A stretch of 40,708 nt of DNA, from NCBI GenBank assembly GCA_937139565.1, contig CAKZQH010000022.1, positions 1-40,708 on the forward strand. Direction: 5' to 3'. Below the pieces are notes generated by a model. That model made no database searches, was not told where the DNA came from, and was given only the letters and a program-made list of their open reading frames with translations. This DNA comes from an uncultured Nitrospiraceae bacterium. GTDB taxonomy: Bacteria > Nitrospirota > Thermodesulfovibrionia > Thermodesulfovibrionales > Thermodesulfovibrionaceae. This document shows, piece by piece, positions 15,624-40,708 of this stretch; the stretch's first letter is position 1, and each line of letters begins with the position of its first letter. The position numbers and the translations under genes were made by a program.

Positions 15624-15772
15624 GGATTTTTTGAATTTTGTATTCCTTTTATTAAGGAAAAATTGTTATTGACTTTTTTAAGTAAGTTGAATTTTTATGT
15701 CATTGCAGCCATTATAAATAACCTATCACTGTTAGAGCTTCGATGGCTCAAAACACCATATTGATATACCCC

Positions 15773-15836
15773 CATTTTTGGAATATTATAAATACGAATT
15801 TTAATACTTATGAACCCAAACATTGGAACAAAATAT
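15773..15836. repeat. Flank repeat shared with 39888-39960
   Basis: About 65 bp containing ATTATAAATACGAATT and CCCAAACATTG recur in the same orientation at 39888-39960, just outside the third copy of the mobile element. Read on the minus strand, both copies encode related peptides (FG...IRIYN-PK), so this is probably the decayed tail of an insertion sequence. Confidence 0.6.
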
Positions 15837-16038
15837 TTACGTATCACGCCTAAATACCTCCATCGGTATGCCATAAAGCTCTGTGTATTCTTCAAAAGCC
15901 TCAATTACCTCCCTATCTCTAATCCTCAACCCAATATTGATGCCTATACAAAACCTGCTAAAAAAGGTCTTCAACTGTCATAAATTTTATAAACCTACCA
16001 TCAGAAAGAGAATCAAAAAGAAAATCTACTGCCCAGAC
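15837..16038 (-). pseudogene. IS3-type transposase (rve integrase core) remnant
   Basis: Minus-strand translation gives VWAVDFLFDSLSDGRF and TVEDLF, then after a frameshift SRFCIGINIGLRIRDREVIEA and YGIPMEVFRRD. This matches the pattern W-x-D-F-x3-D-x-L-x2-G-R ... V-x-D-x-F-S-R ... G-x-P around the first catalytic Asp of IS3-family OrfB (DDE, rve) transposases. A run of six T (15960-15965) breaks the frame. The sequence stops at 15837, about where the second catalytic Asp motif (DNG) should be. The 5' part is replaced at 16038 by the end of the TIR element. It is clearly non-functional. Confidence 0.75.
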
Positions 16039-16908
16039 ACCCGACTTCATCACTTTATGGCATATTTTATTCAAAAACTAAATATTTAAAAGAATTATAT
16101 CTTCCCTGTCCACCCAATATAGTCTAATGTCTTTTACTCCTCTTAAAGCCAATTTCTCTCTTGCTTCGTTTACTAATATCAAAAATCTTTACCTGTAAAA
16201 CTTGAATCAAAAGATTAATACTCTCTCCGTTGATTTCTGCTTTTAATCCATTGTATTCTACACATAATCTTTATACTATGAGGGTATCATGATTAACACA
16301 AGACAAGCTTCTAATGAGATTGGTAAAGGATAGAGAGAGCTATGAGGGAGAGAATAAAGGCAGGAAGGGGATCTCTGATAACATAGCGTATGCATTTTGT
16401 CACTTTGAGCCCTCGATGAGGCGAAGCAGTCTCTGACCCCCCGACATGTCACTGCGAGGCCACGAAGTGGCCGTGGCAGTCTCTTTCTGTCACTGCGAGG
16501 GGCTCGATGCCCCGAAGGGGTCTCTAAGTAAAGCCTACAAAGAGGCAACGACGAGATCACTTCGCTGACGTTCGCAATGACTCCTCCTCCACCGTCATTC
16601 CGAACGAAGTGAGGAATCTCATTTCGTCCAAGTAGGAGGAACGACGAGATTGCTTCGCTGACGCTCGCAATGACAGAAGAGGGGGACTCGCAATGACAGG
16701 AAGGGGGAGAGGTTCTAATTTCAAGAATAGAGCGGAACGAAAAGAGATGATCAGATTCGCAAATGAGATAACAAGGAAGGAGGAAAATATAGACAGTTAG
16801 AGGAAAATCGGATGTTTAAAAATAGCTTAGAGGGCATTTAGACTAATTTGTAGATGATAAATCATTGATTTACAAAGGTTTTTAAGTTTATAGTGATGAA
16901 GTCGGGTG
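16038..16908 (-). mobile_element. 871-bp transposase-less element with perfect 17-bp terminal inverted repeats (copy A)
   Basis: CACCCGACTTCATCACT at 16038-16054 is exactly inverted at 16892-16908. Between them are AT-rich arms and a GC-rich cluster of palindromes (about 16370-16730). Copies B (to 38265) and C (from 39966) share both arms and the GC-rich core in the opposite orientation, and copy B ends at exactly the same GGGTG border, which confirms the boundary. One arm, read on the minus strand at about 16131-16275, keeps an open frame ending KRSKREIGFKRSKRH that is also open in copy C. I cannot name that product; it may be a transposase relic. No target-site duplication is evident. Best read as a non-autonomous or decayed insertion element. 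Confidence 0.75.
16370..16730. repeat. GC-rich cluster of REP-like palindromes inside copy A
   Basis: This core is far richer in GC than its surroundings and is built from short units such as TCATTGCGAGC/GCTCGCAATGA, GTCACTGCGAGG, GTCATTCCGAACGAAGTGAG and GGGGCTCGATGCCCC. A perfect hairpin GGCCAC-GAA-GTGGCC lies at 16458-16472 inside a longer ACTGC...GCAGT stem. Similar TTGCGAGCGAAGCGAAGCAA-type repeats are scattered in many unrelated bacterial genomes and give spurious ORFs. No RAYT (REP transposase) gene is in the window. Confidence 0.8.
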
Positions 16909-16954
16909 ACAAAAAGAAAGACATCCATTTTTATTGATTAAAAATGGATGTCTT
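16908..16954 (-). terminator. Strong intrinsic terminator of the xerC-hslVU-cupin operon
   Basis: A perfect 16-bp inverted repeat (AAGACATCCATTTTTA, 16918-16933, against 16939-16954) with a 5-nt loop is followed on the minus strand by TCTTTTTG. That is a classic hairpin plus U-tract for leftward transcripts. It lies about 230 nt past the cupin stop and directly abuts the border of element copy A. Confidence 0.7.
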
Positions 16955-17025
16955 CGTAAAACCGAAAAGAAGTTCTTGCACCTACAAAAAATAGTTCTCA
17001 TAATTCTCGGCATCAAGACCTTTTC

Positions 17026-37506: not shown

Positions 37507-37549
37507 AGACCTTTAAGATAACAGCTTGAGACTCAACAGGATCGAGCTC

Positions 37550-38265
37550 CCCTCTTCCGTCATTGCGAGCCCCCCTCTTCCGTCATTGCGAGCGAAGCGA
37601 AGCAATCTCGTCGTTGTCTTTTCGTAAACTTTACTTAGAGACTGCTTCGGGACATCGAGTCCCTCGCAGTGACAAAAGAAGGATGTCTTGCGAGGAGCGC
37701 AAGCGACGAAGGGATCTCGTTGTTCCTCCTACGTGGACGAAATGAGATTCCTCACTTCGTTCGGAATGACGGTGGAGGAGGAGTCATTGCGAGCGTCAGA
37801 GAAACAATCTCGTCGTTGCCTGTTCGTAGGCTTTACATAGAGACTGCTTCAGGACATCGAGTCCCTCGCAGTGACAGAAAGAGACTGCCACGGCCACTTC
37901 GTGGCCTCGCAGTGACATGTGAGGGGTGTCAGAAACTCCTTCGCCTCATCGAGAGGCTCACAGTGACAAAATGCATACGCTATGTTCTCAGAGATCACCT
38001 TCCTGCCTTTATTCTCTCCCTCATAGCATAAAGATTATGCATAGAATACAATGGACTAAAACCAGAAATCAACGGAGAGAGTATTCATCTCTTGATTTAA
38101 GTTTTATAGGTAAAGATTTTAATATTAATAAACGAAGCAAGAGAGAAATTGGCTTTAAGAAGCGTAAAAGACATTAGACTACATTAGGTGGGTGCGGAAA
38201 ATATAAGTCTCTGAAATATTTAGTTTTTTTGAATAAAATATGGCCTAAAATGATGAAGTCGGGTG
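37550..38265 (+). mobile_element. Repeat element copy B, lacking its left terminal repeat
   Basis: A GC-rich palindrome cluster (about 37555-37975) is followed by the same AT-rich arm as copies A and C, ending in ATGATGAAGTCGGGTG at 38250-38265, the TIR border seen in copy A with one mismatch. No CACCCGACTTC left terminal repeat was found upstream, so the left arm is missing. The arm's small reading frame carries two stop codons here that are absent in A and C. ORFs of 60-120 codons across this element are repeat translations, not genes. Confidence 0.7.
37865..37917 (+). repeat. Direct repeat pair bounding a 41-bp unit
   Basis: CTCGCAGTGACA at 37865-37876 recurs at 37906-37917, a 41-bp period. 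The unit contains the hairpin GGCCACTTCGTGGCC (37892-37906). Copy C has a single CTCGCAGTGACA at 40384-40395 and lacks exactly this 41-bp unit. Confidence 0.75.
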
Positions 38266-38388: not shown

Positions 38389-39846
38389 ATGAAAATTCCG
38401 AGAGTCATGTCTACCCAACATCCTGATAATGTTCGCCTTCCTTTTTTTGCTGAAAGTCCAGATATGTCTGGAGATGATGAAGTTCAAGAAGCCTATTATG
38501 CCTTCTCCCATCTAGGCTGTGATGAGCAGATGTGGGACTGTGAAGGAAAGGAAGTTGATAACTTTGTTGTAAGAAAACTTCTTACTAAATACGAGTATTT
38601 CTTCTCCCAAACAAAATTAGGGGAGGATGTTTTTCTTACTCTTAGAGTGCCTAACCCTGATGTGGAAAGGGAGGAAGCAAAAGTTCTTATTGAAACCCTT
38701 GAGAGTATACCGCGCTCTTCTGATGCTGCTAAGCTTTTCTATGGCAGGGATAAGGCTCCTATTTTTGAGATTATACTGCCAATGACTACTTCTGCGATAA
38801 GCCTCAATAGAATTTATTACTATTACAAAAATTTTGTTGTGGGAAAACAGAATCAGTTATTCTTTCCTGGGGATATAAATATAGCGGCATGGATTGGAAA
38901 ATTTTTTCCGGAGACAATCAATGTGATTCCCTTATTTGAAACAAAAGAACATCAACTTGAAGCCCATAAAATTATAGGAGAATATCTTAAGGACAAGATT
39001 ATTAAACATCAGAGAGTATTCATTGCGAGATCTGATCCGGCAATGAACTATGGTATGATAAGTGCAGTTTTGTGTAACAAAATTGCACTTCAACGACTAA
39101 GAAATCTATCGGAAGACTTAGGAGTAAAGATCTATCCGATACTGGGTGTTGGTTCTGCGCCATTCAGAGGACATCTTAAACCTGAGACTGTTGATATGAT
39201 TCTTGATGAATACCCTGATGTTCAAACATTTACAATTCAGTCAGCTTTCAAATATGACAATCCTGTTTCTTCGGTGATCTCTGCAATAAACAAACTAAAG
39301 AATTCACAAATGAGAGATGGTCGTGTAATTGATGAAGAAAGAGGTATAGTAATAATAAACAAAGTTGAAAAAGAATATAAGAAAATAATTAAACACATTG
39401 CTCCACTTATTAATTATGTGGCAAGTTTTGTTCCTAAAAGAAGAATGCGTAAACTTCATATAGGATTATTTGGCTATCCAAGAGAGGTTGAAGGGATAAA
39501 GCTTCCTAGAGTAATCAGTTTTTGTGCTGTTTGCTACTCGATTGGTCTTCCTCCCGAAATATTCGGATTAAATAGTCTCTCTGAGGAGGATATCCAATAC
39601 TTGAAGGAAGTCTATCCGAGTCTAACATTTGACATTCAAACAGCGATGTCTTACTTCAATGAGGAAATTTTCAGTCTTTTACCAGATGAGGTAAAAAATT
39701 TAATCAAAATTGACTGGGAGTATGAAACAAATATTGAGCACAGGGAGATTACCTCAAGAATAATTAGAACATTAAAAGAAGGAAAAAAATTAGATATTCA
39801 AACTATGATTGTAGAGGCAGCTCATATAAGAAGGTTCTTAGGATAA
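38389..39846 (+). CDS. ppcA: Phosphoenolpyruvate carboxylase, archaeal type
   Basis: The 485-residue protein matches the short archaeal-type PEPC family (bacterial Ppc is about 900). It makes oxaloacetate from PEP and bicarbonate for anaplerosis. Recognisable parts are PRVMSTQHPDN (4-14), DEQMWDCEGKEVDN, FLTLRVPNPDVER, IFEIILPMTTSA and GVGSAPFRGHLKPE. GAGGGAAGG lies 5-8 nt before the ATG, and an AT-only tract with TATAAT at 38349-38354 is the likely promoter. The gene stands alone between repeat-element copies B and C. The family is common in Archaea and sporadic in Bacteria. Confidence 0.93.
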   Translation: MKIPRVMSTQHPDNVRLPFFAESPDMSGDDEVQEAYYAFSHLGCDEQMWDCEGKEVDNFVVRKLLTKYEYFFSQTKLGEDVFLTLRVPNPDVEREEAKVLIETLESIPRSSDAAKLFYGRDKAPIFEIILPMTTSAISLNRIYYYYKNFVVGKQNQLFFPGDINIAAWIGKFFPETINVIPLFETKEHQLEAHKIIGEYLKDKIIKHQRVFIARSDPAMNYGMISAVLCNKIALQRLRNLSEDLGVKIYPILGVGSAPFRGHLKPETVDMILDEYPDVQTFTIQSAFKYDNPVSSVISAINKLKNSQMRDGRVIDEERGIVIINKVEKEYKKIIKHIAPLINYVASFVPKRRMRKLHIGLFGYPREVEGIKLPRVISFCAVCYSIGLPPEIFGLNSLSEEDIQYLKEVYPSLTFDIQTAMSYFNEEIFSLLPDEVKNLIKIDWEYETNIEHREITSRIIRTLKEGKKLDIQTMIVEAAHIRRFLG

Positions 39847-39887
39847 AGATTATCAGTTTTTCATTCTTTCTTCAATATGATTTACCC

Positions 39888-39960
39888 CTGTTTTTTGGAA
39901 CATTATAAATACGAATTCTAAGTCTCTCATCTTTCATGCACCCAAACATTGAAACATTTT
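39888..39960. repeat. Flank repeat shared with 15773-15836
   Basis: This segment after ppcA repeats the ATTATAAATACGAATT and CCCAAACATTG blocks of the region left of copy A, in the same orientation. On the minus strand it reads MFGCMKDERLRIRIYNVPK before a stop at 39872-39874, similar to the A-side peptide. It is probably an insertion-sequence relic. Confidence 0.55.
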
Positions 39961-39965
39961 TCTTA

Positions 39966-40708
39966 AGCCCATCTTCATCACTATGAACTTAAAAACCACT
40001 GTAAATCAATGAGTTATCATCTACAAATTAGTCTACATGCCTTTTAAACTATTTTTAAACCATCCGATTTTCCTCTAACCGTCTATATTCTCCTCCTCCC
40101 TTGTTATCTCATTTGCGAGTCTGATCATCTCTCTATCTTCCGATCTATTTATGCAATTAGAACCTCTCTCCCTTTCTTTCATTGCAAGGCTTATCTTTTT
40201 ATGTCATTGCGAGGAGCGCAAGCGACGAAGGGATCTCGTTGTTCCTCCTACGTGGACAAAATGAGATTCCTCACTTCGTTCGGAATGACGGTGGAGGAGG
40301 AGTCATTGCGAGCGTCAGAGAAACAATCTCGTCGTTGCCTGTTCGTAGGCTTTACATAGAGACTGCTTCAGGACATCGAGTCCCTCGCAGTGACATGTGA
40401 GGGGAGTAAGAGACTGCTTCCTGCCTTTATTCTCTCCCTCATAGCTCACTCTATCCTTTATCAATCTCATTAGAACCATGTATTTCGTTAATCGTGATAC
40501 CCTCATAGCATAAAGATTATGTGTAGAATACAATGGATTAAAACCAGAAATCAACGGAGATAGTATTCATCTTTTAATTCAAGTTTTACAGGTAAAGATT
40601 TTTGTTATTAGTAAACGAAGCAAGAGAGAAATTGGCTTTAAGAAGCGTAAAAGACAATAGACTACATTAGGTGGGAAAGGAAAATATTAGTCTTTGAAAT
40701 ATTTAGTT
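39966..40708 (+). mobile_element. Repeat element copy C, running off the window
   Basis: The left end is a degenerate terminal repeat (CCCATCTTCATCACT, 39968-39982; 13 of 17 positions match copy A). The left arm matches the reverse complement of copy A's right arm, the GC-rich core (about 40195-40420) is nearly identical to copy B, and the right arm continues to the last base of the window, about 40 nt short of the expected border. Its arm frame (NGLKPEINGDSIHLLIQVL to KRKRQ-stop) is open. No complete transposase is present. Confidence 0.7.

Follow-up and report, generated by a model that had tools for sequence, protein, structure and literature searches.

Background

REPs of the 'CGTC' superfamily carry a short CCA-like tail and a stem of 8-9 bp that starts with A-T and encloses a loop of 4-5, TGTC variants of the head being common (PMC3733652). 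They occur across several phyla, of which five were listed in 2013 (Nitrospirota not among them), and the same survey found no dedicated transposase, leaving open a movement by other transposases (PMC3733652). Insertion sequences of the IS1634 family, formerly placed within IS4, are marked by ends of the type C-----YT and by AT-rich target duplications of 5-6 bp (PMC2266710).

The locus described here lies in a window of 40,708 nucleotides (the whole stretch of DNA that was analysed), taken from contig CAKZQH010000022.1 of an uncultured Nitrospiraceae bacterium. We consider it highly probable that positions 16040-16906 of this window are a large MITE of the IS1634 family, which would be moved in trans by an IS1634-type transposase and thereby spread a core of REPs that was captured once.

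Results

Borders and structure of the element

A perfect 17-bp inverted repeat and a GC-rich palindromic core are present at positions 16038-16908, where the initial annotation had described perfect 17-bp terminal inverted repeats (TIRs) bounding an 871-bp unit with a REP-like core; two further copies could also be identified in the window. The unit is real, but its limits were corrected from 16038-16908 to 16040-16906 on the basis of target duplications. Across copies the 5-bp duplication stops right before CCC, so the TIR begins at CCCGACTTCATCA with the border at CCC and not, as first annotated, at CACCC, and comparison across copies assigns the CA/TG at the outer edge of the 17-bp repeat to the target. 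The features are listed in Table 1. The element has no coding capacity, as only short frames were present and a Pfam search gave no match. In the left arm, no similarity to a transposase was found in the approximately 250 bp that follow the terminal 100 bp. An origin of the arms as transposase remnants was considered and rejected, since sequence comparison gave it no support. Directly to the right of copy A lies a palindrome with a stem of 15-16 bp (16918-16955; folding energy -20.7 kcal/mol, z -5.9), which looks like a bidirectional terminator.

Table 1. Copies of the element in the window and their parts
Feature	Position	Strand	Remarks
Left target duplication AGACA	16035..16039	.	4/5 match to right one
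Copy A, complete 867-bp non-autonomous element	16040..16906	+	Based on borders, genome matches, target duplication
Copy A left TIR CCCGACTTCATCACT	16040..16054	+	
Copy A left arm, conserved among copies	16040..16398	+	No long ORF, no Pfam match
Copy A core, array of CGTC-type REP palindromes	16399..16699	+	6 recognisable heads
Copy A right arm	16700..16906	+	Outer ~75 bp ~80% identical to right end of resident IS1634-type IS
Copy A right TIR CCCGACTTCATCACT	16892..16906	-	
Right target duplication TGACA	16907..16911	.	4/5 match to AGACA on left
Copy B: left TIR, left arm with internal deletion, REP core	37547..38263	-	Right arm lost
Copy C: degenerate right TIR, right arm, REP core	39968..40708	-	Left arm cut by contig end

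Copy B had been said to share the border of copy A, and it indeed reaches position 38264 with the same left border, its right arm being gone. The degenerate 'left end' reported for copy C exists as a degenerate TIR at 39967, but in the orientation of the element it is the right end, because copies B and C are both on the minus strand. The two copies, which have the same orientation, flank an ORF (38389-39846) whose putative product is an archaeal-type phosphoenolpyruvate carboxylase; a match to this ORF was found in only nine of the 16 genomes of the genus. Another dispersed repeat, about 100 bp long (TTTTTGGAATATTATAAATACGAATTTTAA...), was seen just outside several element copies, at 15762-15866 and 39878-39956 in the window and also at C24:432-511 (where it abuts a TIR), C72:58477-58574, C72:2102-2178 and C109:649-731. 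This repeat may represent a favoured target or an outer remnant of the element.

Copy number and target duplications

The 871-bp sequence and the TIR pattern were used to search the genome of the window (1.99 Mb, 113 contigs), as the initial annotation had proposed. The 871-bp query gave dozens of matches, mostly with 75-92% identity and with ends clustering at query positions 2 and 870, and a scan with ACCCRACTTCATCA, allowing one mismatch, detected 106 TIR-like sites against one for a control pattern, far above chance. When sorted by their inner sequence, these sites fall into the left and right ends of one element plus two further classes. At least 31 distinct two-ended copies of 678 to 1262 bp could be identified, and the genome holds about 50 left and about 44 right ends. 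Thus, neither outcome that had been named as contrary evidence was observed: further copies with the same borders exist, and TIRs and core are not randomly combined.

With the border set at CCC, exact 5-bp direct repeats flank six of the 31 copies (0.69 expected; 0 of 3000 shuffles), all six being among the 17 copies with at most two TIR mismatches. These target duplications are AT-rich, and no length other than 5 bp stands out at this border. Moving the border outwards by one base gives an excess of 3-bp and 4-bp matches as well; target duplications of 3-4 bp were nevertheless dropped, as the shift of the border by one base gave 5 bp. A preference for targets of the T...A type would explain this excess at the outer border, as well as the A that precedes CCC at most ends and the apparent 17-bp repeat of copy A.

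Arm identity among copies has a pairwise median of about 81%, rising to about 92-93% between nearest neighbours, and the copies include both old and young ones. No insertion interrupting a recognisable gene was found in a check for spanning ORFs. Likewise, no empty site could be demonstrated, because the relatives, with about 60% protein identity, are too divergent, and no spanning ORF was convincing. One copy of the MITE contains inside its right arm another IS1634-type element with the TIR CCCGACTTTGTCAG (locus L189, contig C44, 1150-1829).

A resident insertion sequence with the same ends

The TIRs of the element are shared by a resident IS, represented by 10 left ends and about 10 right ends with identical or nearly identical sequences; ten ends have the sequence ACCCAACTTCATCACAAAAACTAAAAAATCCC and ten others ACCCAACTTCATCAAAAATAACCCCGAAATTTTAAG. 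In nearly all cases the contig terminates about 75 bp into the IS, a behaviour expected of identical repeats in short-read assemblies. Two contigs extend further into the IS, one with the first 189 codons of the transposase (up to DITSVYFEGR) and the other with the last 89 codons. The full-length relative with the same TIRs plus a transposase that had been suggested as a search target was therefore found as regards its TIRs, but its transposase is seen as two halves on different contigs, with no complete gene in the assembly. The N-terminal 189 residues match the NCBIfam model for IS1634 (NF033559) with an E-value of 8.9e-15 and the C-terminal 89 residues with 2e-4; being fragments, both stay under the 100-bit cut-off set for the whole protein. 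The contig with the C-terminal half also shows that the resident IS is disrupted by an IS256 (Transposase_mut) element (L148, contig C75, 8870-9586).

The right ends of element and resident IS are about 80% identical over 75 bp (local score 69, against a maximum of 28 for shuffled sequences), while the left ends have in common only the TIR and a TAGTCTAAT motif at equal distance, which is not significant by shuffling. The element ends CCCGACTT fit the C-----YT pattern of the IS1634 family, and complete IS1634 elements of the genus have the TIRs CCTGACTTTATCAA and CCTGACTTTGTCAG, which resemble CCCGACTTCATCAA at 12 and 10 of 14 positions, respectively. Since the resident IS looks young and the elements are about 20% apart at the median, an older relative of this IS may have moved most of the element copies.

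The REP core

The palindromes of the core start with (C/T)GTC followed by A(T/C)TGC or ATTCC, and finish in GCAATCTC, GCAGTCTC or GGAATCTC. By inspection, the CGTC or TGTC tag and the stem starting with A-T fit the CGTC superfamily. The tail is CTC; five outer pairs are present, some units have an additional inner stem, and single units range from strong to weak folding. To judge from these sequences, the core palindromes would belong with the CGTC superfamily, albeit as an imperfect match.

Every complete copy of the element contains REPs, the most diverged copies included, and no pair of arms was found without them. Many copies have the same junctions: on the left the core begins 22 bp past a GGGATCTCT motif with a GTCACTG-like head, and the right junction is common as well. 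The shared junctions and the presence of the core in all complete copies argue for a single capture, and the acquisition of the REP core was thus probably one event that preceded amplification. In six whole contigs (406 kb, that of the window included), 73 of 81 exact REP heads (about 90%) are at most 700 bp from an arm and eight are elsewhere. REP density is 199 per Mb with the elements and about 20 per Mb outside them, the latter value being similar to the 5 to 45 per Mb that the same motifs reach in three relatives.

Distribution among relatives

The arms are species-restricted, and the REPs are genus-wide: none of the 15 further genus members searched has arms or TIRs, and their genomes contain palindromes only, or nothing. 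In a sample of 396 genomes of the phylum the left arm was not found except for two 25-bp matches; as this DNA search was limited to two scored candidates per genome, distant copies of the arms could be missed. In a search of the same 396 genomes, the N-terminal half of the IS transposase was found in this genome alone. Scans of the genome contig collection gave no match to the transposase halves, and the plasmid collection gave no DNA match, its closest proteins being IS1634 transposases with about 30% identity. An Rfam search returned nothing above threshold.

In the sampled 200 kb of the relative G002, a different REP variant is abundant and no such TIR is present, so an IS1634-type vehicle is not the sole way in which REPs multiply. 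In the arrays of this relative (L111, 1100-2186), units of another variant are joined by a repeated linker GTCCAAACAGGAATCCCTGACGTCA, without TIR arms.

Discussion

An association of REPs with TIR elements could also be secondary, if REPs had entered pre-existing elements independently, or if the TIR element targets REP clusters. REPs are known insertion targets, and they are found outside the elements too. Moreover, 9 of 21 ends of the IS class have a REP motif at a distance of 50 bp or less, compared to 2.3% of random positions; the IS itself counts 8 of 20, because the end at C75:7956 is that of an old MITE copy. The resident IS thus seems to insert preferentially into REP and element sequence, or to persist there. 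For the MITE ends, however, a REP motif was found just outside in only 3 of 94 cases, and the occurrence of REPs in all complete copies, mostly at two identical junctions, makes independent insertion improbable. A movement of the REPs by a RAYT tyrosine transposase of their own, with the TIRs being incidental, is more improbable still. The genome does contain one Y1 transposase locus (L151, contig C106, 1470-2100), but this combines a frameshifted tnpA with a tnpB-like frame behind it, and is IS605-like and not a RAYT. In addition, Y1 hits occur in only two of the 16 genomes of the genus, yet the REPs are genus-wide. A RAYT/REPtron system was rejected, as the search for Y1 transposases gave no RAYT gene flanked by the palindromes.

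The core could furthermore be a functional part of the element under selection, such as a recombination site, a transcription insulator or a transposition enhancer. No complete copy lacks it, and some palindrome types fold well as single strands. On the other hand, the core differs among copies in both length (149 to 724 bp) and content (2 to 16 heads), and the same REPs occur outside the elements and in relatives without arms. We regard such a function as rather unlikely, although it would be compatible with the MITE reading and would alter no more than the role of the core.

An IS1634-family MITE with a REP core corresponds to one of two options given in the initial annotation, that of a non-autonomous transposon spreading REP sequences, and is supported by the borders, the target duplications, the IS with the same TIRs and the constant core. 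The other option, an IS hollowed out by REP insertion, may apply to the founder only: both ends are IS1634-like, but the left arm has no transposase match. We propose that an IS1634-type transposase, from the resident IS or from an extinct relative, would act in trans to cut and join the ends of the element, with insertion presumably into intergenic AT-rich 5-bp targets that become duplicated. The founder element would have acquired a cluster of CGTC-type REPs once, after which the whole TIR-arm-REP-arm-TIR unit could have reached dozens of copies through prolonged amplification. Recombination may meanwhile have enlarged, shortened and reshuffled the internal REP array. As the REP core travels with the amplifying unit, the spread of REPs would here be a case of hitch-hiking, and REP abundance may reflect the host element instead of the REP.

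In this genome, a class of REPs would have found its vehicle in a DDE insertion-sequence system. The value of the observation is this tie between a DDE transposase system and a REP class without a known transposase: the travel of most REPs of one genome in an IS1634-type element gives a concrete answer, for at least one lineage, to the question of CGTC mobility raised earlier (PMC3733652). That capture by DDE IS derivatives is a general route for CGTC-type REPs to multiply within genomes and to cross between them is a speculative extension that we think doubtful; if it holds, this genome shows such a spread in action.

Comparison with known systems

The initial annotation had not recognised the combination as a described family. 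No description of an IS1634 MITE with a CGTC-type REP array was found in the literature, within a partial coverage, and a search with the REP head sequence gave unrelated papers only; a precedent for a MITE with a REP does exist in QMITE2 of Coxiella burnetii (PMC10969869, which cites earlier work). QMITE2, which has itself been hit by an IS, differs in being only about 190 bp long, in containing one GTAG REP, and in that the attacking IS is IS1111, of another family. Like the IS-derived MITEs MITEAba12, Nezha and the Cardinium MITE of ISCca4, the present element has the TIRs of a resident IS, no coding capacity, target duplications and many copies, but it is longer (about 0.68-1.26 kb for complete copies) and is built around a variable REP array. 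With the IS1634 family it has in common the C-----YT ends and the 5-bp AT-rich duplications, and the fragments of the partner transposase match the family model, whereas the element itself lacks a transposase.

The CGTC-tagged REPs RPE-4, RPE-6 and dRS3 (PMC3733652) likewise exhibit a (C/T)GTC head, an A-T stem start, a short unpaired tail and clustered units; here, in contrast, the tail is CTC instead of CCA, the loops are longer and the units lie inside a TIR element. CGTC REPs embedded in another repeat are also known from Halothiobacillus neapolitanus, where CGTC-1 dimers occur in 41-bp palindromes (PMC3733652), that is, in a short palindrome and not in an IS-type element with arms and target duplications. 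The element is consequently of a kind already known, the MITE, and a REP inside a MITE has its precedent in QMITE2; the CGTC-type array as cargo appears to be new.
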